DNA of 22,379 bases, from the IMG/VR virus record IMGVR_UViG_3300010354_000738, positions 1 to 22,379 of that record; one strand, written 5' to 3'. Shown in pieces: positions 8,032 to 22,379 of the stretch (positions are counted from its first letter, which is position 1; each line of letters begins with the position of its first letter). The notes beneath the pieces were generated by a model. That model had not been told where the DNA came from. It searched no databases and was given only the letters and a program-made list of their open reading frames with translations. The stretch is from a virus. The translations under genes were made by a program, and so were the position numbers.

Positions 8032-8826
8032 ATGGCTAAATTTTTAAATTACAGAAATATATCTTTTACTATAGAAAATGAAAGATATTATGCATCAGAG
8101 ATTTCTTTGTCTGCTCAAGCTTCGACTTCTGCGGTAATATTAAATGATGGAACATTATTAAATTACGCACCAGAAGGTGCTGTTGTTGGAAGTTTAAGCG
8201 TTAATTTTTATTTGACAGGATCGTTTCCATCTTATTTAAATATAACAGGAACATCTGAATCCGCAATAACTGCTAGATTTGCAAATGTATTGATTACTGG
8301 CTTATATCCAAAATCTGTTAATTTTTCAGTTGAACCGTTTCAGCCTATATCTATCTCTACAGATTTTGATTGGTATGGAAATGTATCTGTACAAAGTTTC
8401 GATGAAAATACAGATGATCAAAAAGCCAATATTCCCGTTCCAGATTATTTTGCTAATGGTTATAAATCATATATAAATAAAAAAGATTTAGAAGGTGTTG
8501 ACAATGTAGTTCAGTTTTCTTATAGCGCGTCTTGTGAAAGACCTGCTTTTTTCAATGTAGAAGATAAGATTCCTTTTAGAGTTGCTAAATTAAATAAAAA
8601 TGTATCTTGCGAGCTTTCCTCTAATGAATTGGGTGATTTATTAAGCATAACAGGTAAAAATGCTGTGTGCGATATAGTTTTAAAAGATTTATACGGAACA
8701 ACATTAAATACTTTCGCTGTTAGTGGTGTATTAAATAGTCAGAGTTATAAAGTTTCAGAAGGCCAATACCTTTTAGCTTCTGCTAAAATAGATCAAGTAG
8801 TCGTTGAGAAGAAAACTTTAATATAA
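8032..8826 (+). CDS. Beta-rich tail protein, paralogue of the protein at 5384-6289
   Basis: A 264-residue protein starting 1 nt after the fibre gene stop. No Shine-Dalgarno is visible. It shares collinear blocks with the 301-residue protein upstream: GSLSVNFYLTG near 53-63, ISTDFDWYGNV near 107-118, then a CERPAFF...IPFRV stretch matching NCPKLPIYG...IPIEV. Spacing between blocks differs by only a few residues, which supports common descent rather than chance. There is no transmembrane segment. The family is not recognised. Its stop codon overlaps the start of the gpM-like gene by one base (TAATG), implying translational coupling and perhaps joint assembly. A distal-tail or tube-like role is plausible but unproven. 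Confidence 0.72.
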   Translation: MAKFLNYRNISFTIENERYYASEISLSAQASTSAVILNDGTLLNYAPEGAVVGSLSVNFYLTGSFPSYLNITGTSESAITARFANVLITGLYPKSVNFSVEPFQPISISTDFDWYGNVSVQSFDENTDDQKANIPVPDYFANGYKSYINKKDLEGVDNVVQFSYSASCERPAFFNVEDKIPFRVAKLNKNVSCELSSNELGDLLSITGKNAVCDIVLKDLYGTTLNTFAVSGVLNSQSYKVSEGQYLLASAKIDQVVVEKKTLI

Positions 8827-10694
8827 TGAGCGCAATATTATCAGGATTAAATATAAAAAATATTTATGAGTATGATGGTACACAATCATATTCTAAATAT
8901 GATATTATTGATTATCAGCTTGTAACAGGAATATCTGTTTATCCTGCGTATACGGGTTTTGGAAACACTGGATTGACGACGTGGTTTAATAATGATTTTT
9001 TAAATAGTTTTGTTACTGATTCTAGATTTAATGTAACAGGATGGCTGAATTCAGTAAGTGGTAGTGGAAATTTGATCCAGATTAGCGATGATGAAAACAC
9101 CAAACCTTTTGTAGATTTTAATGAATATTATTTAAATATTTATGGCGATCAATTTTTAAGCGGTTCTGGATTTGCTTCTGACTCAAGAACATTTATTACT
9201 TTAGTAGACGTTTCAGAAATAAAACTATCGACTGATTCCAGAAAGATATTTCAATTTTGTTCTAGTTATGGAGAAAATTCAGGTAAATTTATAGTAAGCG
9301 GTGTTAGTAATTCAGGCGCAGCAAAAATACTTCTTGATAGTCAACAGTATAATGCGGTTAGTCCTTTATACGATACAAAGAATATTTTTACAATTGTACA
9401 AGACAGTAATTCAAATTCTATAAAAGTCAGGCAGAACGGTTATGAAATCGGAACTTATAGTTCTTTTCCTTCCAATTGGAAAAGCGGAGTATTAATAATA
9501 GGGGATAATCCTCAAACTAGCGGGGTAAAATATTATGAACTAATACATTTCACTGGAGTTTTATCAGAAACACAAATTGATTATTATGAAAAGTATTTAT
9601 ATGAAAAATATTTTGATAATACTCGTTTATACTTTGCTAAAAATAATGTTCCAGCTGGAGAACAATATTCTCCAATCACATTTTCTGGTAGGCTTTATTG
9701 GACTCAAGATATAGACGAATTATTTAAATTGTCTTATGGTTCAAGTGTCAATTTCTCTTCAAATTTGTCAACGCTTGAAATGGGTGATGGTTATAGAAGT
9801 AATGTTGCTAAAAATGTAAACACATTACAAACCACATTTCAATTAAATTTTGACGGTTTGACTGATACTCAGGCTAAATGTTTAATAACATATTTTGAGA
9901 ATACTCCTGAAGCGCAAAATAAAAGTTTATATGAGGGTTTTAAGGGAGTTAATATAGATTTATTTAATCCTTATAAAAATAATGCTGAACTATATTTTAA
10001 AACAATAAGTCATACAACGCCATATAATAATATAAACAATATAAAAATAAATGCTGAATCGTTGTATGATAGCTCTTTGGATTATAAAGGCATGTTGGTG
10101 CAATTAGATGAAGTTTCTATCAAAACTTATAATAGCACTATTTATGATATAAATTATAATGATGTATTTTATTATGGTTCTGATTCTTTTAATTTAAGAG
10201 GATATTATTATTATACTGGAAGCGGTTATAATCAAGGGTCAAGCGGTGTAACTGGTCCATTAATTATAGGACCAAATAATAGTCCTACTGGAGCAGATTC
10301 GTGGTTCACTAAAGATTTTTATTTTAAAGGTGATATAGATTATGGTATTGATTCGGAGATTAGATTAGTTGTTAATGATCAAAAAAATTCAACTATTGAA
10401 TACGAAAAAGATGGTATTAACTATAATTTGATGCAGTTTAATGTTGTTTTTAATAAAAGATCAAATAAAGAGGCTAGAGCTTTATTAAAATTTTTAGATG
10501 AAAAAGCTGGTTTTAAAATATTTGAATATATTTTACCGCAACCTTATAATAAAACTATAAATGTTTATTGTCCTGAATGGAGTCATACTTACAATTTTTA
10601 TGACAATAATGACATTAATATAAAATTAATCGAAGTAAAATCGCCAGTTAGAGCAACTAGCGTCTTTAATACAATTATTTCTTGGTCGTCATGA
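8826..10694 (+). CDS. M: Lambda gpM-like minor tail protein with N-terminal LamG-like domain
   Basis: A 622-residue protein, against about 110 residues for lambda gpM. The N-terminus contains YDGTQSYSKYDII, like the first strand of small carbohydrate-binding modules. Residues about 90-265 look like a LamG/concanavalin-type beta-sandwich. That region ends in the signature YYELIHFTGVLSETQIDYY then YLYEKY, the usual E...L...Y-L-x-x-K-Y helix of such domains. Residues about 287-400 match the gpM family: MGDGYRSNV at 319-327, then FDGLTDTQAKCLITYFEN and a Phe/Pro-Tyr region. A second gpM-like half appears near 498-612 (EARALLKFLDEKAGFKIF, then an ILPQPY turn and PEWSHTY). The protein probably joins the tail tube to the tip, with the N-terminal domain displayed outward (inference). 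Its start overlaps the previous stop (TAATG); its TGA overlaps the next start (ATGA). Confidence 0.75.
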   Translation: MSAILSGLNIKNIYEYDGTQSYSKYDIIDYQLVTGISVYPAYTGFGNTGLTTWFNNDFLNSFVTDSRFNVTGWLNSVSGSGNLIQISDDENTKPFVDFNEYYLNIYGDQFLSGSGFASDSRTFITLVDVSEIKLSTDSRKIFQFCSSYGENSGKFIVSGVSNSGAAKILLDSQQYNAVSPLYDTKNIFTIVQDSNSNSIKVRQNGYEIGTYSSFPSNWKSGVLIIGDNPQTSGVKYYELIHFTGVLSETQIDYYEKYLYEKYFDNTRLYFAKNNVPAGEQYSPITFSGRLYWTQDIDELFKLSYGSSVNFSSNLSTLEMGDGYRSNVAKNVNTLQTTFQLNFDGLTDTQAKCLITYFENTPEAQNKSLYEGFKGVNIDLFNPYKNNAELYFKTISHTTPYNNINNIKINAESLYDSSLDYKGMLVQLDEVSIKTYNSTIYDINYNDVFYYGSDSFNLRGYYYYTGSGYNQGSSGVTGPLIIGPNNSPTGADSWFTKDFYFKGDIDYGIDSEIRLVVNDQKNSTIEYEKDGINYNLMQFNVVFNKRSNKEARALLKFLDEKAGFKIFEYILPQPYNKTINVYCPEWSHTYNFYDNNDINIKLIEVKSPVRATSVFNTIISWSS

Positions 10695-12123: not shown

Positions 12124-13566
12124 ATGGGCTTAACAATGTATCAAGGCAGAAATCCAGCACGACCAGTGTCTGTTGTTGTGGTAAGTGGTAATCCTGTTCC
12201 TACCGCTCCTGTTGCAGGAGTGGGGCCTCCGAAATCTAATCAATCGGGCGCTGTAAGTCCTACGCCTACAACCACTGCTTCTAGTAGTGATGGTCAGGGT
12301 TCAGGCAATACAAATGCTCAATCTCAAGGCGAAGCTGGTCAAGCGGGTGGTGTTTCTGCAACCAATAATTTACCTAATATATATTTTAATTTTAAAAATT
12401 TTTCATATAATAATTTAAATTTAAAATTTAAATTTTCAACAGATTCTTTAAATTCAGGAAGCACTGCTACTAATACATGGCAATGTGACCCATCTATAAA
12501 AGCGGGTAATGCTAATCTTGTTGGTCCAGCGGGATGTTTAACGCCAGCATATGCTTATGGAAAATATTTTTATGAACTTGCTTATAATACAAGCATAACT
12601 AATTCAACGTTCTTATTAACTCCATCTTTTTCACCTAGTTATGCTGTTTTAGTTTTTGCTATTGCAAATACAAATACTTCGGGTTCTATGTATCAAGATT
12701 TTGCAAATTTAACTAAAACTTCAAGTATACATAAATTTATTGCGGCAGATAGCACTAATGCTAGTAATGATATTTTTAATTTTAATTCATTTAAAAAAAC
12801 AGTTTCTCAAGATGGTGCAACGAGTCAACAGGACATTGTAAAAGCTATATTTACAGGGGGAACGCTTAATTCGTCACAATTTATAAGTTCTTTACCTGCA
12901 AGTACTTATCTTGATAGAGCTGGAAATAAAATTAACATTATAAGCATTAATCCTGATCAAACTTTTTCACAGACTGTTGGTTCTGCTAGAAATCAACCAG
13001 TTACCGCACAATTAAATTTATATGATTTATTTCCTTTTAATGGTTATAATTTGCCAACGAATTTAAATAACCCAACTGCTCCAGTAGATTTTCAGATAAC
13101 TCAAGGCGGATCAACTGTAAATTATAAAAACTTTTGTTTGTTTTTTGTAGAAATGAGATGTTATATGTCTCAAACGTATTTAAACGTGAATTCAAATCAA
13201 GCGTTTTTTGAAACATACGTAAATGGAATCCTTACTTCTAGCTCGTATCTTGTCGTTGATAAAACATTAGACAGTTCCACATTGAAAAATTATATTATAA
13301 GCCTTTCTAATAAAACTTTACCTGGAATTACTAATCCTAATAATAAGTTATTTTTATTTGATTATTTATATGCTTCTACTTATAATAGAAATGAAATGGA
13401 AATTCAATCTAGAAATACTGTTACTAGTTTAGTTTCTAAATATAAAAATTTATTAATAAAAAGCACATCTGATTTGCAGATTGCGGATTCTTCTAAGAGT
13501 TTGGCTTTTCCGGTTAAATTTTCTCATCCTTTTTTGAATTTATTTTTATCATCGAAAACTGTATAA
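12124..13566 (+). CDS. Unrecognised tail-block protein with low-complexity N-terminus
   Basis: A 480-residue protein that I cannot assign to a family. Residues about 1-20 are followed by a Pro/Ser/Thr/Gly/Gln-rich, probably disordered linker to about residue 85 (for example SPTPTTTASSSDGQGSGN). The remaining 395 residues are Asn/Ser/Phe/Tyr-rich with a beta-strand-like pattern and a few scattered cysteines (near CDPSIKAG, AGCLTP, FCLFFVEMRCYM). There is no signal peptide or clear membrane helix. It starts 5 nt after the adhesin-like gene and ends 1 nt before the gpL-like gene, with no Shine-Dalgarno. Its position in an unbroken tail operon argues for a virion or tail-assembly role. The flexible N-terminus could tether a globular C-terminal domain to the tip (inference). 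Confidence 0.62.
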   Translation: MGLTMYQGRNPARPVSVVVVSGNPVPTAPVAGVGPPKSNQSGAVSPTPTTTASSSDGQGSGNTNAQSQGEAGQAGGVSATNNLPNIYFNFKNFSYNNLNLKFKFSTDSLNSGSTATNTWQCDPSIKAGNANLVGPAGCLTPAYAYGKYFYELAYNTSITNSTFLLTPSFSPSYAVLVFAIANTNTSGSMYQDFANLTKTSSIHKFIAADSTNASNDIFNFNSFKKTVSQDGATSQQDIVKAIFTGGTLNSSQFISSLPASTYLDRAGNKINIISINPDQTFSQTVGSARNQPVTAQLNLYDLFPFNGYNLPTNLNNPTAPVDFQITQGGSTVNYKNFCLFFVEMRCYMSQTYLNVNSNQAFFETYVNGILTSSSYLVVDKTLDSSTLKNYIISLSNKTLPGITNPNNKLFLFDYLYASTYNRNEMEIQSRNTVTSLVSKYKNLLIKSTSDLQIADSSKSLAFPVKFSHPFLNLFLSSKTV

Positions 13567-13567
13567 T

Positions 13568-15517
13568 ATGTCTGATTTATTTTTATTAAAAAATTCTGAA
13601 GTTCTCGATCTTTTTGAAATAAAAATTAATGATTACGAAGGGTATTTTAGGTTTCATGGCTCGAAAAATTTCAATAAAGATATAGTTTTTCAAGGCTACT
13701 CTTATATATATATTCCTTCAGAAATATCTAATTTAGAATATACTTCTCAATCGCAACAGAATAGACCCACTCTAACTATTGCAAATATAAATAATTTTAT
13801 AACTAATTTTATAAAAGATAGAAATGATTTGTTGGGTAAAAGATTTTTTAGAAAGAAAATATTAGCGAGAGATTTAGATGCTATTAATTTTGGTGGTGAA
13901 AACAAAAACCCTTTGGGTCAAAGTTCTTTTACTTCATATATAGCTTCAGACACATTTGTAATAAATAAAAAAAATTATGAGTCAAAAGAAAAAGTTGAGT
14001 TCACGCTTGCTAATATTTTAGATATTGAAAATATTACAATTCCAGCAAGAAAAGTATATAATGATTTTTGCTCATGGCAGTATAGAGGTTGTGGTTGTAA
14101 TTATGGAAAAATTAATGGATATAAAGGACCGATTGTACAAAGCAATAAAACTAATTATTTAAATTTACAACAAATAAACGAAGAAGATACAAATAATAAT
14201 TTAACCAGTTATTTAAGAGTTTGGCTACGTCCAGAAGGAATACAAACTTCAGGGGATATAACTATGAAACGTTTGGGTCCAGGTCCCGAAGAGTTTCTAA
14301 AATTCCAAAGGGTTACTGCTTGGACAAATGAAGGAACTTCTTCATCTCCAACAGTTGTTCAGCCTGATTTTTTATCAACATCTCCTAAAAAAATTATTGG
14401 CACAGCAAATCAAGAAAATTATTATTCTAATGCTGGCAGAATGAATAATCAATCGGGTGTATATTTTTCTCATAATCTAAGCACTAATATATTTGATAAA
14501 CTGAAAATTAATGAAAACTTTTCTTCATCAGAAACCACTATATTTTATGTTGCTGAAATGACAAATTTATTATATAGAAAAGGTACAGAAGGTGGATTTT
14601 TTGGTTGGGGTCAGGGAGGTGTAACTAGAAGAGGTTTAACTTCAGATGTAACTAATACTTGGATAGGTTGGGAGGTAAGAAACTCAGGCGCTAGTGAAAA
14701 AAGACAAGACGTTTGTTTGATAAATAATTTTCTAATGTTTGGTAATAATGCTGATGCGCATCAACATTTAAATGTTCCAAGAATATATACTTTAACATGT
14801 TCAACATCCACTTCATTGCCTACAATTTGGATGAAAAATGGTAATCTAATAGCTAAAACTTTTGCATACACAGGAGGCGGACCTGGTAATTTAGTTTTAA
14901 ATATAAATTCAGCTGGAGCAAGTGAAATTATAATTTATGAAATAATAGTATATAATAAAGTTTTAGATGAACAAAGCATCGCCAAAGTAAATAGTTATTT
15001 ATCGGCAAAATACAATATAATGATTCCAAAACAAATAAGAAGAATAGAAAATAAATTTAGCTCTTCTTATTTTTCGAGTTCTGATGGTAATTTAGGAGTT
15101 CCTGTTGCAGATGAGAATAATAAAATATTTTTAAAAGACACAAGCCAAGAAGCAGAAAGTTATACGAATTATGAATCTTATAATCTTTTAAGCATGGAAT
15201 ATAAATCTGGATATAATCCTAATTATAATTATAAGCAGGGTGATTTTGTCAAAATTGATGCGAATATTGATTATGATTTTAATGAAAAATCAGTACTCCA
15301 AAATAATGAATTTCCTTCTAGATTTTTTGTTTGTATTGATCCTAATGGCTCTTTTAATCAACATCCATTGAATTATACAGATGTTTGGAAAGAAGATAAA
15401 TGTTCAAGAAATTTAAATGGATGTTTAATAAGATTTAATGATCCGAGCGTAAATATTCCATTTGGTGGATTTCCGGGTACAGTAGGCTATGATTACAAAT
15501 TACCAGGTGGAAGCTGA
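13568..15517 (+). CDS. L: Lambda gpL-like tail tip protein split by a LamG-like insertion
   Basis: A 649-residue protein; lambda gpL is about 230 residues. Residues 1-180 follow the gpL pattern: a YFRFHGSKNFNKDIVFQGY strand region, then RPTLTIANI, LLGKRFFRKKILARDLDAIN, and IPARKVYNDF. Next comes CSWQYRGCGCNYG with Cys168 and Cys177 at the family spacing and an extra Cys175. The other conserved pair lies at the far end, DKCSRNLNGC with Cys612 and Cys619, followed by the IPFGGFPGT signature. In this family the four cysteines bind an iron-sulfur cluster (family knowledge). Between the pairs lies a domain of about 270 residues (about 215-486). It starts YLRVWLRPEG and ends EIIIYEIIVYNKVLDEQSI then YLSAKYNI, which is LamG/concanavalin-like. 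A YKQGDFV...FFVC segment (Cys589) precedes the second pair. The gene's 3' end overlaps the gpK gene by 29 nt. Confidence 0.85.
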   Translation: MSDLFLLKNSEVLDLFEIKINDYEGYFRFHGSKNFNKDIVFQGYSYIYIPSEISNLEYTSQSQQNRPTLTIANINNFITNFIKDRNDLLGKRFFRKKILARDLDAINFGGENKNPLGQSSFTSYIASDTFVINKKNYESKEKVEFTLANILDIENITIPARKVYNDFCSWQYRGCGCNYGKINGYKGPIVQSNKTNYLNLQQINEEDTNNNLTSYLRVWLRPEGIQTSGDITMKRLGPGPEEFLKFQRVTAWTNEGTSSSPTVVQPDFLSTSPKKIIGTANQENYYSNAGRMNNQSGVYFSHNLSTNIFDKLKINENFSSSETTIFYVAEMTNLLYRKGTEGGFFGWGQGGVTRRGLTSDVTNTWIGWEVRNSGASEKRQDVCLINNFLMFGNNADAHQHLNVPRIYTLTCSTSTSLPTIWMKNGNLIAKTFAYTGGGPGNLVLNINSAGASEIIIYEIIVYNKVLDEQSIAKVNSYLSAKYNIMIPKQIRRIENKFSSSYFSSSDGNLGVPVADENNKIFLKDTSQEAESYTNYESYNLLSMEYKSGYNPNYNYKQGDFVKIDANIDYDFNEKSVLQNNEFPSRFFVCIDPNGSFNQHPLNYTDVWKEDKCSRNLNGCLIRFNDPSVNIPFGGFPGTVGYDYKLPGGS

Positions 15518-15830
15518 TCTTTTGCAATTTCTAAAGAAAAAATGTATTGAATCAGAGAAAGAAATATGCGGTTTTATTAAGAAAAAAAATAATACTTATT
15601 CTTGGTTTATTGAATCTAAAAATTTACATCCAGATCCAGCTAACTTTTTTTTAATATCGCCAAGAGAATATATTGATAATGAAGAATCTATATTGTTTCA
15701 TAGCCATCCTAGTCATTGTAAAACAAAAGGTTTTAGCGAATGGGATTTAGAAAATCAAAAATATTTTGCACTGACAATGTTGTTATATAGTGTAAATGAT
15801 GATAAGTTTTATTATAGTTATTATGGTTAA
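15489..15830 (+). CDS. K: gpK-like tail assembly protein, JAMM (MPN) metallopeptidase domain only
   Basis: A 113-residue JAB1/MPN/Mov34-type protein. Candidate zinc and catalytic residues are all present: an acidic residue in EKEICGF (Glu23/Glu25), His71 and His73 in HSHP, Ser83, and Asp86. Together they make an H-S-H-P-x8-S-x2-D motif, one residue longer than the usual x7 spacer. Lambda gpK carries a JAMM domain followed by an NlpC/P60 peptidase domain; only the first is here, and no NlpC/P60 gene lies next to it. Homologues act in tail tip assembly and possibly in cell-wall cleavage. The start at 15489 overlaps the gpL-like gene by 29 nt. A TTG 33 nt downstream is an alternative that would nearly remove the overlap but shorten the N-terminal helix. 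Confidence 0.83.
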   Translation: MITNYQVEADLLQFLKKKCIESEKEICGFIKKKNNTYSWFIESKNLHPDPANFFLISPREYIDNEESILFHSHPSHCKTKGFSEWDLENQKYFALTMLLYSVNDDKFYYSYYG

Positions 15831-16347
15831 TGTAACATTACATGGAATTTTAGGAAAAAAACTAGGAAAATTTTGGGAGCTGGAAGTGGAGTCTATTATG
15901 GAGGTTTTTGAGGCTGTTGAGGCAAATTGCTATCAAGTAAATAAATATTTTAATGATTTTAATAAATTTTTTACTCATTTCATAGTTTATATTGATGGAA
16001 AAATTATGCCAGCTCATTTAATAAAAAGTAAAATTTTAAAACCAGATAGTAAAGTTGAAATAGTTCCTGTTGTTCAAGGAGGCTGGTTTATTCTTGTTGG
16101 TGTTATATTAATTGTTTTATCTATTGTGCTGGCTGTTTTATTAAGTCCTAAAGCTCCTAAAGATGTAAAAACTAATTCAACAATTTTAGGTGGAGTAAGA
16201 AATGTGTTAAATAGAAATATTCCTATTCCCATCGGTTATGGAAGAATGAGGTTGGGTAGTGCTGTTATATCGAATGATATAATAATAACTTCTGTGGATC
16301 CTAACAAGAATAATTTTGAAAATGCTTATGGTTCATTAACGTTATAA
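15823..16347 (+). CDS. I: gpI-like tail assembly protein
   Basis: A 174-residue protein from the ATG at 15823, which begins MVNVTLHGILGKKLGKFWEL, the family's usual N-terminus. An in-frame ATG at 15796 would add nine hydrophobic residues and is disfavoured. The N-terminal 80 residues look like the ubiquitin-like beta-grasp domain of the lambda gpI family. It ends in VEIVPVVQGG, and a strongly hydrophobic helix at about 87-110 (GGWFILVGVILIVLSIVLAV) follows. The C-terminus has IPIPIGYGRMRLGSAVIS (about 132-150), matching the PVP-x-x-YG-x-x-x-x-GSAVIS signature of gpI. In lambda, gpI is needed for tip assembly around gpJ. It overlaps the gpK-like gene by 8 nt and lies 5 nt before gpJ, exactly the lambda K-I-J arrangement. 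Confidence 0.87.
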   Translation: MVNVTLHGILGKKLGKFWELEVESIMEVFEAVEANCYQVNKYFNDFNKFFTHFIVYIDGKIMPAHLIKSKILKPDSKVEIVPVVQGGWFILVGVILIVLSIVLAVLLSPKAPKDVKTNSTILGGVRNVLNRNIPIPIGYGRMRLGSAVISNDIIITSVDPNKNNFENAYGSLTL

Positions 16348-16352
16348 TTCAA

Positions 16353-19300
16353 ATGTCTCAAATAGCATATATTTTAAATACAGATCAGACTTTTATTAAT
16401 AATGCGGGTAAAGCATTAGAATCTGATGAGCGGTTGAGTTGTGCGGATTTGATCTGTGAAGGTCCGATTGAAGGTTTAGTTGATAGAGATGGCGAATTGT
16501 TGAAATTTATTACAGATGAAACGAATACTCAAGTTGATAGTCTGATTTTAGGAAAAGGAGTTTATTATAATAATGTACCACTTATTGATTCTAAATTAAA
16601 TAAATTAAATTTTGTTACTGCTGGATTTAATATTTCATATGGTGAAGAGTTTAATCTTTATAAAAATCAATATGCGTCTACAGTTCATAAATATAATCAG
16701 AAACTATATTTGAATGAATCAAATATATTTGATAATGCATTTAATTTAGCTGGCGCTGGTATTTTCGCTTTTTACCAGTCTGATAAGAATGAGTTTTTTG
16801 ATGATTCTGATAGTATTGTTGATAATCCTTTGAAAGGATGGATAAGAAGTAATTCAAGTTATAATATAAACGGTGTTTTTATTGGTTCAAATTTAGCTCA
16901 AACATTAGATGAGGCAAAAAGAAATTGCCAAGAATTTAATCATAAAATAGTTAATAAATATGCTGATCAAATTTCAATTCAGTTAAGAGCTAATCAGCTT
17001 TTTCAAACAGACAATACTGGAAATACTGTTTCTACTTCTGGCGTGATTGCAATCGAATTTAGTCAAGATAATTCTTCTTTTCGTTATTTTGTTTTAGTTA
17101 AGATGATAGGGATATCTAAATCAGGTTTTACAGTTGATATTCCTATTGCTTTACGAATGAATTCAGTTGTTTATAATAATTATTATGTAAAAGTATATTG
17201 TTTATCTTCTAAGATTTCTCCAACTAATGGAACAACTTTTAAAGATTTTAGCGTATCAGCTATTGTAGAAAGAATTAAAGATAAAGGAAATTTTTCTTAT
17301 CCTTTTACGGCACTTGTAAAATCAGCGGTTAGTTCTAGACATTTTAATGAAGATCCTGAAAGAACATTTGATTTAAAACTTCTTAAAATAAAAGTTCCAA
17401 ATAATTACGATCCAGAAATAAGAGAATATTCTGGTAATTGGAATGGTAAATTTGAAAGTTTCCTTAGATGGACTGACAATCCGGCTTGGATTTTTTATGA
17501 TATTTGTACTAATTCTAGGTATGGCGTTGGAAATGGTCTGATATTGGAAAGAGATTTGAATAAATGGGATCTATACAAAATAGGAAAGTATTGCGATGAA
17601 TTAATTAAAATTGCGACACCAAATAAATACGATCCTGATACTTTTTATATTGATAGTCAAAATAAAAATATAATTTATGTGCCCAAAGGAGATAGAACTC
17701 TTGATTCCTTTAAAAATCAATATCCTCCAATTTTTGATTTAGATAAAAAGTTTGCTTATACAAATGGTGGTTATCAAAATTCTGTAATTTATCTATATGA
17801 TTTAGAAAACGATGCGGAAAAATTTGAAAACGCTCATAAAAAATTAATTTGGTCAATTGAAGAGGATGTTGGAAATTTTAAAATTAAATTAATAAACGAT
17901 TTTGGAATTAGAAAATTTTTTGAAAATGATAATACAAATTTAATGCAGTTGTTTTGTGATCAATATATACCGACAGTCGATACAAAAAAATCTTTGAAAG
18001 ATAGAATCAATGAGGGATTAAAAAATACTCAAGCCGGTGCTAAATCTTTTGTTTTGGAGTGTATGTCTAATTCTATTTCCAATTATAGTTCGTATATAGA
18101 AACTCAGATATTTTCAGATGATTATTATTATAATAAATCTGATGAAAATCCAATTTTGTTAAGAGGAAAATGTATGCCTAGGGTTTTTGGTTATAGAGAT
18201 CCATTTGAGAATAGATTTTCTTGTAATGTTGTAATAGATAATGATACAGAAGCTTTAAAAATATTAAATGATTTAGCGTCAATTTTTAGAGGAATTACTT
18301 ATTATAAAAATAACGTTGTGACTTCAACGATAGATGTTGCGAAGCCGATATCTTATATATTTAATAATTCAAACATAAAAAATGGAGCTTTTTCATATTC
18401 TTCCGCTTCTTTAGATGGCAATCATACTGTTGCAAAAGTTTTATACAAAGATAGGTACGAAAATTTTACTGAGCAGGTAGAAATAGTTGAAGATTATGAT
18501 TTAATTAAAAATTATGGTATAGTTATTAAGGAAATTTTAGGTTTCGGAATCACTTCTAAAGATCAAGCAAGAAGAATTGGTCAATGGTTATTGCTTACAA
18601 ATAGATTTGAAAATCAAACTGTAACGTTTTCTACAGATTTGCAGGGCATTTCTCTAAGACCTAGCGATGTAATTCAAATTGAGGATCAGTATAAAAATAA
18701 TAATATTTTACAAGGAAGAGTTGTTGACGTTGATTACGATAACAAATTTATAACTATAGATCGTCAATTAAGTTTAAATTTAACTGGCCAAAAAATTAAA
18801 TTTATATATGATAAAAAAACTAAATCGATTGCTGATCTTAATAATTTAGAAACTGTTACTGATTCTGATTTAGATTCTTTAAATATTAATAATGTTATTG
18901 AATTAAAAATAGCTAGAATAGAAAATAATACAAACAGAATATATTTTGATTCTTCTTATAACTATAGTTTTTTTAATTCTATTTTAAGAACAACTCCATT
19001 TGTTATAGAAGATAATGATAGTAATCAGATTAGTAATTTATATAAAATAGTAACCATTTCTGAAATCGATAATAATGAATATCAGATTTTTTGTATTCGG
19101 TATGAACAAGAAAAGTACGAAGCTTTAACAAAAAATTCTTTTCAAAGCGCGGTAAATTTTTCAGATAATTCTATATCTTATGCAATATCAGATATATTGT
19201 CCGAAATAAAAGTCGATGGTATAAACTTCTATTCAATCTCTAACTATTCTTTAAATCAATTAAGCGGTCTAAATATTGATTTTTATTTCAATGAGCCAAG

Positions 19301-19625
19301 AACATCTTTGATAAAATCATCTCAATTGTCAAAAGATTATTCAGTTTTAAATTTAGATTGTATTAATCTTTTTAATCAAATATCTATCAAAAGCACATCT
19401 AGTTCTTATTATAAAAACATTTTAACAACATTAAACGATGGTGGTGGCATACTTTTTAAGATTGGATTAAGAAATCAAAATATAAAATTTTATGTCAAAA
19501 GCTCATCCGTAGCCAATAAATCAGTTTTTTTGGGTAAATATGGTAATTCATCAGTATCTTTTTATGCAAGTGCTGAAGTAAAACTTTATTTATTTGATAA
19601 AAATAATAAAATAATTGATGTGTAA
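16353..19625 (+). CDS. J: gpJ-like central tail tip protein (host specificity / tip attachment)
   Basis: A 1090-residue protein, close to lambda gpJ (1132). It forms the trimeric central tip that closes the tail tube and leads to the host receptor. Family blocks in order: LICEGPIEGL (about 33-42); SYPFTALVKSA from Ser315; VPNNYDPEIREYSGNWNGKF (about 348-367); WTDNPAWIFYD from Trp373, then RYGVGNG; KWDLYKIGKYCDELI; FENRFSCN; RYENFTEQVEIVEDYDLI; EILGFGITSKDQARRIGQWL; and SLRPSDVIQIED. Compared with lambda, about 186 residues (about 420-606) are inserted between the YCDELI block and the FENRFSCN block, where lambda has only a short turn. After about residue 820 the sequence is Asn/Ser-rich and unlike lambda. 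It lacks the long adhesive tail of some gpJ proteins, so binding may be delegated to the next gene (inference). Confidence 0.92.
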   Translation: MSQIAYILNTDQTFINNAGKALESDERLSCADLICEGPIEGLVDRDGELLKFITDETNTQVDSLILGKGVYYNNVPLIDSKLNKLNFVTAGFNISYGEEFNLYKNQYASTVHKYNQKLYLNESNIFDNAFNLAGAGIFAFYQSDKNEFFDDSDSIVDNPLKGWIRSNSSYNINGVFIGSNLAQTLDEAKRNCQEFNHKIVNKYADQISIQLRANQLFQTDNTGNTVSTSGVIAIEFSQDNSSFRYFVLVKMIGISKSGFTVDIPIALRMNSVVYNNYYVKVYCLSSKISPTNGTTFKDFSVSAIVERIKDKGNFSYPFTALVKSAVSSRHFNEDPERTFDLKLLKIKVPNNYDPEIREYSGNWNGKFESFLRWTDNPAWIFYDICTNSRYGVGNGLILERDLNKWDLYKIGKYCDELIKIATPNKYDPDTFYIDSQNKNIIYVPKGDRTLDSFKNQYPPIFDLDKKFAYTNGGYQNSVIYLYDLENDAEKFENAHKKLIWSIEEDVGNFKIKLINDFGIRKFFENDNTNLMQLFCDQYIPTVDTKKSLKDRINEGLKNTQAGAKSFVLECMSNSISNYSSYIETQIFSDDYYYNKSDENPILLRGKCMPRVFGYRDPFENRFSCNVVIDNDTEALKILNDLASIFRGITYYKNNVVTSTIDVAKPISYIFNNSNIKNGAFSYSSASLDGNHTVAKVLYKDRYENFTEQVEIVEDYDLIKNYGIVIKEILGFGITSKDQARRIGQWLLLTNRFENQTVTFSTDLQGISLRPSDVIQIEDQYKNNNILQGRVVDVDYDNKFITIDRQLSLNLTGQKIKFIYDKKTKSIADLNNLETVTDSDLDSLNINNVIELKIARIENNTNRIYFDSSYNYSFFNSILRTTPFVIEDNDSNQISNLYKIVTISEIDNNEYQIFCIRYEQEKYEALTKNSFQSAVNFSDNSISYAISDILSEIKVDGINFYSISNYSLNQLSGLNIDFYFNEPRTSLIKSSQLSKDYSVLNLDCINLFNQISIKSTSSSYYKNILTTLNDGGGILFKIGLRNQNIKFYVKSSSVANKSVFLGKYGNSSVSFYASAEVKLYLFDKNNKIIDV

Positions 19626-19634
19626 TTTATAAAT

Positions 19635-22379
19635 ATGCCTATAATTACAGGGTCAAATACAAATAGCTATGGAATTTATGAGGTTTTAAGCTTACGAGTT
19701 CCTAATCTAAATGCTTTTTCTAGTTTGGATTATAGTATTAATCCAACACTTTTCGGTCTTTCTCCATCTGCTAAATTAGTTTCTGGTACAATAAATCAAT
19801 CATCATTTGATATTGCTTTATCGATAAAAAATCCAGAAGATGATAAAGTTTTAGCAAATGCAACTATATCGGCTGAGACGTTTTCTGGTTTGAATGTTGA
19901 TGTATATTCTAAAAATAGATCTTTCCTCGGTTCTTATTTTTTAGGTTCTAAACAGACGGATTTTACAATTGATTCTAGTATTTTAGCTTCTTATTTGCAA
20001 AATATAACAGGAGCTTTAAATTTAAATCAGGTTAGAGAAGTTTTTCTTGATTTTAAAACATATGATCGCGCTGGTAATCAAGATGTTTATCATTTTCTTT
20101 TAAATTATCCAAAAGTTGAAATTACAGGTTTGCAAATAAGAAATACTAATCCTATAAATATTGCTCCTTTGGTTAATAATTTTGGTTATTTGAAATCTGT
20201 TGACGTATATTCTGTATATAATAAAAATATACTACCTAATACTACAGGTTTTTTTGATCTTGTTAGTGGATATTATAAAACATCTTTTGATTATGAAAAT
20301 GATAGATACATACAAAATTTGTTGTTAGATGCGCCGTCTTTTATTGATGAGAATCTAGAAATAGTATTGCCAACTAATTTTGTTTTTATACCTAGAGATT
20401 ATTTTAGTACTGGATCTTGGTTTTTAAGTTCTGGCATAAAAACCTCGTATTATGATACATCGCTAGTACCTTTAAAAATATCAAATGTTACTGGTTACAT
20501 TTCTTGTTCTCAGAATGAATACGACAAAAATTTAGATACGCAGGCTATTGTAAAATGGAACGCCATAAAAACAGATAATGCTTTATCTTTTGAAACCTAT
20601 GTTTATGAGGATGGAGTTGATAATGCTAATTATGTATATGCTTCAAATAATCCTCAAGTTCAATCAATAAAACAAATTTTTTATGGTACTGGAAGTGGAA
20701 TAATAAAGAATGCAACTGGTTCATCATATTATTCTGGTTTAGATCCAATTTTTAAGAAATACAGCACTTCGGGAATACAATGGGTTGATCATACTTTATT
20801 TCTAGATAATTATGCTTCATATCCTTTAGGAATTTATAATACGGGTAATGATTTTGATTATATTACAGAGGTAAGAATACCTTCTGGTTATATAAATTCA
20901 CCAGAATTATATTTTATTAATGTTTTTGATACAGGTTCTAATTCTTTAATTATTTTGCCTAGTGGTGGAAAATATACAGGAAGCGTGTATACTGGAGGTT
21001 ATTCTGGTGCAAGATTTATATCTGGAGGTAGGTATTTAGAGTACACATATGATGGAACAGCTATGTCTCCGGGGGATCCTGGAGCAAATAAATTACAGGG
21101 TGATGCGCCATTAGGTTCTAATAGTCTTGGTAAATTATATTTAGATTCTAGTAATCATTTAGGTAATGATGTCGAATTTTTCTTGTCTAGAATAACTGGC
21201 AAAATCAAATTAGAGAAAAAAAATAATTCTCAGTCATACGTTATTTATGATTATTCGAATTATAATTCAAATGCTGGATATTTTGATATAACAGTTGATT
21301 TATTTAAGTCGTCAAGCGCTGGATTAATATCTGGAGGTGATCGTGTTTTATTAAGTAGGTATAGCGATACACCTTCAACTATTGATTATGAGCAAGGTGT
21401 TTTATTCGCAAAAAGAATAACTGGAAATGCTGATTTTATTTTATCTGAATTTGAGCCAAAAATTAAATTTCCAGTAAAGCCGAATAAAAATTATGAAGTA
21501 AAAGTTCGCGCATCTTATCAAGATGGAAGTTTTTCAGATTTTTCAGAAACATTAAGATTTACTTCTGGTCAAATTGTTGATGCTGTTACGGGTATAACTA
21601 GTGGTAAATTTGTAATTGATGGTTCAGGTGTTAGTGGTTATTTAGCTGTATTTAGTGATAAAGACACAATAACAACAGGAACAATACGGTATAGCGGTAA
21701 TAATCAATTAGTATTTAATCAAGTACCGAATACAACCACTACTGCTTCTCAATTTTTAGTTTTAGAAAATAATATACTTAAAATTCAATCAGGGGATTTA
21801 AGTACAGATGCCGAAAGATTAATAAGAAATTTTACACAGGTTGGTCATTCTTTTGCAACAGGAAACCTTTTGGGTTTTAATGATGTTAGTGGTTGGTTCA
21901 AAGCTAACGCTGAGTCAATAAGCACAGCTGAAGTTGTTGGTATTGTTCAAAATGTATATGTTGACAATTTTGATTTAGTATATAATGGTAGAGTTACTGG
22001 TTTAAGTAGTTTAAATGAAGGTAGCGTTTATTTTCTTTCTCCATATACTTCTGGAGCTTATACTGAAACAGAACCTACTTTTATTGGACAAGTAACAAAA
22101 CCTGTTTTATTTGCTTTATCTCCAACAGAGGCAAATTTTATAATATATAGAGGTTTTGAAATAAATGAAGGACAAGCCAGCAGTGGATCTAGCGGTACTT
22201 CTGGATCAAGTGGTTCTTCAGGAACAAGCGGTAGCAGTGGATCTAGCGGTACTTCAGGATCAAGCGGTTCTTCAGGAACAAGCGGTAGCAGTGGATCTAG
22301 CGGTACTTCTGGATCAAGTGGTTCTTCAGGCACAAGCGGTAGCAGTGGATCTAGCGGTACTTCTGGATCAAGCGGTTCT
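19635..22379 (+). CDS. Large tail fibre protein with collagen-like repeat, 3'-partial
   Basis: Open from the ATG at 19635 to the window edge, 915 codons without a stop; the C-terminus is missing. It begins MPIITGSNTNSYGIYEVLSL 9 nt after the gpJ stop, with no Shine-Dalgarno. Residues 1-600 are beta-rich with several repeats of about 90-150 residues that look like Ig/FN3-type modules. The best of these is FPVKPNKNYEVKVRASYQDG near 610-645. A fibre segment GVSGYLAVFSDKDTITTG follows near 665-682. Residues about 730-845 match a module common in phage fibres: AEVVGIVQNVY, GRVTGLSSLNEGSVYFLSP, FIGQVTKPVLFAL and a final YRGFEI. From Gly851 onward the protein is an uninterrupted Gly-X-Y repeat of Ser and Thr. 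It is the likely central or side tail fibre carrying the receptor-binding head beyond the window. Confidence 0.85.
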   Translation, partial: MPIITGSNTNSYGIYEVLSLRVPNLNAFSSLDYSINPTLFGLSPSAKLVSGTINQSSFDIALSIKNPEDDKVLANATISAETFSGLNVDVYSKNRSFLGSYFLGSKQTDFTIDSSILASYLQNITGALNLNQVREVFLDFKTYDRAGNQDVYHFLLNYPKVEITGLQIRNTNPINIAPLVNNFGYLKSVDVYSVYNKNILPNTTGFFDLVSGYYKTSFDYENDRYIQNLLLDAPSFIDENLEIVLPTNFVFIPRDYFSTGSWFLSSGIKTSYYDTSLVPLKISNVTGYISCSQNEYDKNLDTQAIVKWNAIKTDNALSFETYVYEDGVDNANYVYASNNPQVQSIKQIFYGTGSGIIKNATGSSYYSGLDPIFKKYSTSGIQWVDHTLFLDNYASYPLGIYNTGNDFDYITEVRIPSGYINSPELYFINVFDTGSNSLIILPSGGKYTGSVYTGGYSGARFISGGRYLEYTYDGTAMSPGDPGANKLQGDAPLGSNSLGKLYLDSSNHLGNDVEFFLSRITGKIKLEKKNNSQSYVIYDYSNYNSNAGYFDITVDLFKSSSAGLISGGDRVLLSRYSDTPSTIDYEQGVLFAKRITGNADFILSEFEPKIKFPVKPNKNYEVKVRASYQDGSFSDFSETLRFTSGQIVDAVTGITSGKFVIDGSGVSGYLAVFSDKDTITTGTIRYSGNNQLVFNQVPNTTTTASQFLVLENNILKIQSGDLSTDAERLIRNFTQVGHSFATGNLLGFNDVSGWFKANAESISTAEVVGIVQNVYVDNFDLVYNGRVTGLSSLNEGSVYFLSPYTSGAYTETEPTFIGQVTKPVLFALSPTEANFIIYRGFEINEGQASSGSSGTSGSSGSSGTSGSSGSSGTSGSSGSSGTSGSSGSSGTSGSSGSSGTSGSSGSSGTSGSSGS
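22185..22379 (+). repeat. 54-bp tandem repeat coding a collagen-like Gly-Ser/Thr-Ser array
   Basis: Exact 54-nt periodicity: units begin at 22185, 22239, 22293 and 22347, so 3.6 copies are seen before the edge. Each codes GSSGTSGSSGSSGTSGSS, which itself is built from three 18-nt subunits. The few differences between copies (tct/tca, agt/agc, gga/ggc) are all third-base and synonymous. Glycine is at every third position, as in phage collagen-like fibre stalks, but without proline. The array continues past the window. Confidence 0.95.

Follow-up and report, generated by a model that had tools for sequence, protein, structure and literature searches.

What occupies the chain between the two cysteine pairs of a gpL-type tail-tip protein when the pairs lie several hundred residues apart, and what might it do there? 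The question is raised by a gene at positions 13568..15517 of a virus record of 22,379 bases. We refer to this whole stretch as the window; all positions are given within it, and its gpM, gpL, gpK, gpI and gpJ genes, with their domains, are on the plus strand. The record contains a lambda-like tail module that encodes, besides the tape measure and a number of minor proteins, gpM-like, gpL, gpK, gpI, gpJ and fibre proteins, and in which the order M-L-K-I-J is kept with two additional genes between M and L. The region between gpM and gpL includes a 480-aa protein without family match (12124-13566), very variable among relatives (25-54% where aligned, near-copies aside), which on sequence grounds may be counted as another candidate for host contact. 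Downstream of gpL, the gpK-like gene (15489..15830, 113 aa; phrog_30, E 2.5e-9) overlaps both neighbouring genes. Its product matches JAB/Mov34 only (Prok-JAB weakly) and is too short for the NlpC/P60 half found in lambda gpK. It is followed by a gpI-like tail assembly protein (15796..16347, 183 aa; phrog_32, E 5.5e-23) and a gpJ-like central fibre/hub protein (16353..19625, 1090 aa; phrog_31, E 1.2e-107; PF13550; PF24801 FNIII-A_GpJ). The fibre ORF (22060-22379) has GSSGTSGSSG repeats at its end and continues past the edge of the record. A search with two peptide patterns for prophage copies in genome contigs of sequenced bacteria, which could have pointed to a host, found none.

The 649-aa product of the ATG-start ORF is a gpL-family tail-tip protein. 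Pfam PF05100 (Phage_tail_L) matches it with an E-value of 3.2e-34, the best stretch being aa 26-180, and also matches all 44 homologues. Lambda gpL (8iyk_L) is found by phmmer at E 2.4e-16, with a second short match of query residues 604-635 to lambda 198-224, which is the second cysteine pair. The N-terminal HDI, or tail-tube-like attachment, domain (aa 1-165, 13568..14062) has the predicted tube-like fold, matching 8iyk_L with a Foldseek E-value of 1.1e-9, and the homologue L088 matches the same chain with Z 15.0. Residues C168/C177/C612/C619 align to lambda C173/C182/C205/C212, which surround the cluster density in the lambda structure (PMC10721106). The first half of the Fe-S (ion-binding) domain (aa 166-190, 14063..14137) carries C168 (codon 14069-14071) and C177 (codon 14096-14098) as CX8C, and the second half (aa 612-625, 15401..15442) carries C612 (codon 15401-15403) and C619 (codon 15422-15424) as CX6C. 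In the homologue alignment A2, C168 and C177 are kept in 44/44 sequences and C612 and C619 in 42/42, two further rows stopping short of that point; 36 rows also have C589, and positions C175, C383 and C411 are variable. The original prediction that these are the cluster cysteines of the gpL family, with about 430 residues between the pairs, is thus borne out by the lambda alignment and the invariance, and the spacing is counted as 434 (612-177-1). That the four cysteines come together and form a cluster is expected by homology. The predicted model has pLDDT <50 over the cysteine stretch 152-183, and the region is no better defined in the AlphaFold model of a LamG-free homologue.

Residues 196-483 (14153..15016) are predicted to form a real LamG/concanavalin-A-like beta-sandwich. 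The AlphaFold2 model, built on a 44-sequence alignment, has a mean pLDDT of 74, with values mostly of 80-96 in the sandwich region. Its best fold match is the Pan3 tailspike (9vyh; VIA Z 16.1, 212 aligned residues, 3.4 A), followed by AbnA domain 4 (5hon, Z 15.6), trans-sialidase lectin domains (Z about 15) and the PilC lectin (7oa8, Z 14.7). The latter is the only one reached from the insert at the sequence level, by a weak profile match (E 0.006). Pfam LamG models have no match to the gpL sequence at E 10 or less, so the LamG fold assignment is based on one AlphaFold model. A LamG-like domain had been anticipated at about residues 215-486; the sandwich fold was recovered, and only the bounds proved slightly wider. 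LamG folds also have non-sugar roles. AbnA domain 4 was solved in complex with an arabino-oligosaccharide (5hon), and for the PilC lectin glycan binding was seen both in arrays and by calorimetry (PMC9934059), a precedent that supports a glycan role in general and no particular ligand. Clostridial neurotoxins and trans-sialidases also appear in the fold search, which reflects the shared LamG-type lectin fold only and does not suggest a toxin, and matches to KSHV_K1 and CagX are weak and due to chance. Three gpL proteins of 736-743 aa (L072 398-2605, L074 5001-7229, L075 5001-7208) have an extra stretch (ITVTNVASGELAIGQVVSGTNIPSGATITAL...) nested within the LamG, an insert inside the insert.

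The LamG is followed by a conserved connector with DGNLGVPVADENNKIFLK (aa 503-540, 15074..15187), found in alignments A1 and A2 and common to the LamG-free clade, and then by a module at aa 541-611 (15188..15400). The short Y-x-x-GD-x-V module announced behind the LamG is real, reads YKQGDFV at 555-561 (Y555-x-x-G558-D559) and has a signature conserved among homologues. The module that carries it is itself CBM5/12 (chitin-binding)-like, judging from the modelled fold of the equivalent residues 241-314 of the LamG-free homologue L088. These residues match a tail fibre domain of cyanophage A-1(L) (8kec_a) with Z 8.1 and an rmsd of 1.0 over 50 residues; their matches to the CBM of V. cholerae chitin deacetylase (Z 6.4) and to the chitin-binding domain of Serratia ChiB (Z 5.8) would by themselves lie under the usual noise level. 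The Pfam CBM_5_12 model gave no match at E 10 or less in a search made mainly with the L088 piece, the gpL piece being approximate. The end of the module directly adjoins the second cysteine pair (W607-K-E-D-K-C612).

Homologues both with and without the LamG, which the original prediction had proposed to look for, exist. The gap between the pairs is 21-23 residues in nine cultured Cys-bearing gpL proteins. It measures 134-158 residues in an IMG/VR sister clade, where the CBM-like module is present, the LamG absent and the connector shared, and 385-525 residues in the clade of the gpL studied here, which has LamG and CBM-like module. Neither the CX8C and CX6C spacings nor any of the four cysteines varies within the two clades, with inserts of 134 to 525 residues. 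The full arrangement is common to about 30 different long proteins on many contigs with the frame open throughout, and none of the 32 rows of one clade lacks the LamG. A framework-only tree explains its presence by a single change, which fits gain as well as loss. Among cultured phages, 0/307 records cover 80% of the protein, and the LamG alone has no sequence match at E 1. The gpL of the Prochlorococcus phage MED4-117 (L104 3850-4422) is only 190 aa long and lacks the Fe-S domain, and therefore is unusable for comparing inserts; the gene after it seems to be a fusion of gpK-like and gpI-like parts. On contig L063 (5001-6674, 442-2202), gpL ends at aa 558, ahead of the second pair of cysteines, and an internal deletion affects the gpM-like protein; both may reflect sequencing error or decay. 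Two viral proteins of intermediate length from BFVD, A0A7T5QUL0 (435 aa) and G8EY09 (300 aa), rank high among the fold matches to the model and may be gpL proteins with other inserts at the same port.

A related LamG occurs in the gpM/distal-tail-like protein of the same module (8826..10694), where it occupies aa 44-268 (8955-9629). The profiles of the two LamG domains match in hhalign with a probability of 95.8 and an E-value of 6.6e-9, and the gpM-like copy is the less variable. The rest of this protein consists of two PF05939-like halves in tandem, with the LamG N-terminal. By analogy with JBD30 gp49, which forms a trimer and has two sugar-binding domains in each chain (PMC11445458), the fused pair could let a trimer serve as a six-fold ring. 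Seemingly two more Y-x-x-x-D-V ... P...W modules like that of gpL are found at aa ~15-40 plus 270-300 and at ~430-500, the first of which appears split by the LamG.

The LamG of gpL is hypervariable. Among long members, compared in 435 pairs, identity averages 71.5% for the HDI domain and 72.3% for the C-terminal part, against 52.3% for the region of the module and 31.3% for the LamG, and the LamG is less conserved than the HDI domain in every pair (435/435). Nonsynonymous divergence is higher in the LamG than in the HDI domain in 9/9 close pairs, by factors ranging from less than 2 to about 29 (for example, 0.008 in HDI versus 0.201 in LamG for L055/L068, and 0.017 versus 0.226 for L047/L065), values possibly inflated by misalignment of the variable part. 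Synonymous divergence is broadly similar between the two domains in most of the nine pairs. One exchange of the LamG between near-identical backbones is also seen. L014 and L015 share 98.9% identity over aa 1-190 and 46% in the LamG; L014 and L005 share 94.7% and 79.8%, respectively. At the DNA level, L014 and L015 are about 94-100% identical within gpL as far as the LamG boundary, beyond which identity drops to 75 and then to about 63-70%. LamG data reject the L014+L015 pairing (p-AU 3e-8), and the framework rejects L014+L005 (p-AU 0.04). This pair was chosen after the identities had been seen, and L014 stops within the LamG at the contig end; the p-values are therefore optimistic, yet the breakpoint at the domain edge is still plain. 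The complete proteins of L005 and L015 are 94% identical in HDI, 47% in the LamG, 91% in the module and 100% at the C-terminus. Otherwise, the LamG and framework trees largely agree, suggesting that the LamG mainly diverges fast and is more rarely exchanged.

Taken together, we favor a reading, to which we give a probability of about 0.68, in which the gpL cluster domain anchors three exchangeable LamG-CBM lobes that would bind host glycans. In lambda, the last tail ring is made of gpL HDI and gpJ HDII, with the cluster domain exposed on the outer surface of the tip (PMC10721106). Likewise, the N-terminal tube-like domain would here form the last tail ring together with gpJ, and the first cysteine pair would close the N-terminal half. 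The chain would then exit the tip surface through the LamG and the CBM5/12-like module and come back with the second cysteine pair, the cluster fixing the base of the excursion and thereby placing three LamG and CBM lobes round the tip of each virion. Binding of the lobes to glycans of the host surface would be reversible and would precede the engagement of the receptor by gpJ. Diversification of the LamG and the occasional exchange of cassettes would tune host specificity; the domain could diversify fast and sometimes be swapped because the insertion port would be structurally neutral. The earlier image of the cluster as a staple at the base of a lobe is likely by analogy, because RcGTA gp13, the R4C hub and JBD30 gp50 keep metal binding around an insert. 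The idea of gpL as an adhesin is strengthened by the fast LamG evolution and the exchange between backbones, sugar binding being a probable property of the lobes.

An unlikely alternative is that the LamG lobe is a weakly constrained decoration providing stability, spacing or shielding of the tip, with no specific ligand and with variability due mostly to drift. The dN/dS ratio is below 1 in every pair measured, and therefore does not separate diversifying selection from relaxed constraint; the conserved LamG residues are mostly of the fold type (W, G, Y, L), and the sister clade manages without the domain. However, its retention throughout one clade, a confident predicted fold with lectin relatives, the lower variability of the related gpM LamG and cassette exchange at a domain boundary, typical of specificity parts, speak against this alternative.

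It is improbable that the lobe instead binds extracellular polysaccharide, such as mucus, particles or a chitin-like matrix, keeping virions near their hosts rather than setting host range. The resemblance of the CBM5/12-like module to chitin-binding domains and the ability of LamG folds such as AbnA domain 4 to bind polysaccharides are consistent with this possibility, but the tip-hub position and the rapid exchange suit recognition of the host surface better, neither being decisive. We assign a similarly small chance to the idea that a gap of 434 residues precludes an Fe-S cluster, the cysteines being disulfides or zinc ligands and the lobe being held otherwise. The geometry of the cysteines is undefined in both models, and for JBD30 gp50 the published description speaks only of a putative metal ion; against this, the spacings and the four cysteines stay the same across the two clades at every insert length, and RcGTA and R4C retain the cluster around an insert of ~80 residues. 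An artefact of assembly or gene fusion, conceivable in principle for single-contig metagenome data although nothing specific was found, is rejected as having practically no probability, since the same arrangement recurs in many contigs with an open frame.

A broader and more tentative proposal, which we hold to be somewhat less probable than its converse, is that the split Fe-S domain serves generally as a docking port: the metal would staple the base of a loop at which whole lectin lobes can be swapped while the tip is undisturbed. Were this so, host range in the clade would be determined by a fast-evolving gpL besides the fibres, and the still unexplained cluster, the functions of which in lambda gpL are yet to be characterised according to the tail-tip study (PMC10721106), would be the clamp of a receptor-binding cassette. 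A hypervariable, swappable lectin between the pairs suggests that the cluster clamps surface lobes mechanically, an idea made testable by the natural pairs with and without the lobe. In practice, when host specificity is sought in uncultured phages, gpL, which annotation would label a plain minor tail protein, is a place to look.

How does this arrangement compare with known systems? Lambda gpL (8iyk_L) shares the HDI fold, the four cysteines, the CX8C/CX6C spacings and the gene order M-L-K-I-J, but has 22 residues and no module between the pairs, versus 434 residues with LamG and CBM5/12-like module here. Closest in topology are the hubs of RcGTA (gp13; PMC7296036) and roseophage R4C (PMC10276861), in which, according to the available text of these reports, an oligosaccharide-binding domain of ~82 residues lies between the cysteine pairs and the cluster forms. 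Both systems have a saccharide domain inserted between the halves of a four-cysteine ion-binding domain, as here. Unlike the present insert, theirs is ~82 residues long, its fold is similar to the insertion domain of LKA1 gp49 rather than to a LamG, and no hypervariability is described for it in the same text. In our fold search, the R4C and RcGTA hubs align with L088 over the HDI domain only. In the upper baseplate protein gp50 of JBD30, Cys147/156/238/245 bind a metal called a putative metal ion (PMC11445458); the CX8C...CX6C pattern is identical, but only ~81 residues separate the pairs and there is no LamG. PilC of Streptococcus sanguinis (7oa7/7oa8) also displays a LamG/ConA-like lectin on a filament-tip subunit, but is a pilin rather than a phage hub, and its ligand specificity is not transferable. 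In siphophages of Gram-positive bacteria, evolved Dit and Tal proteins with CBM insertions are described, in the available text, as aiding adsorption (e.g. PMC10688798, PMC7291167). Judged from that text, they resemble gpL in having a carbohydrate-binding module in a core tail-tip protein, but the core proteins and the hosts are different. To our knowledge, evolved Dit and Tal proteins lack the cysteine cluster. Thus, an insert between the cysteine pairs is already known as a topology from RcGTA, R4C and JBD30, whereas the LamG cargo, the ~5x larger insert, the CBM5/12-like tandem, the hypervariability and the cassette exchange are new with respect to the collections and papers searched.
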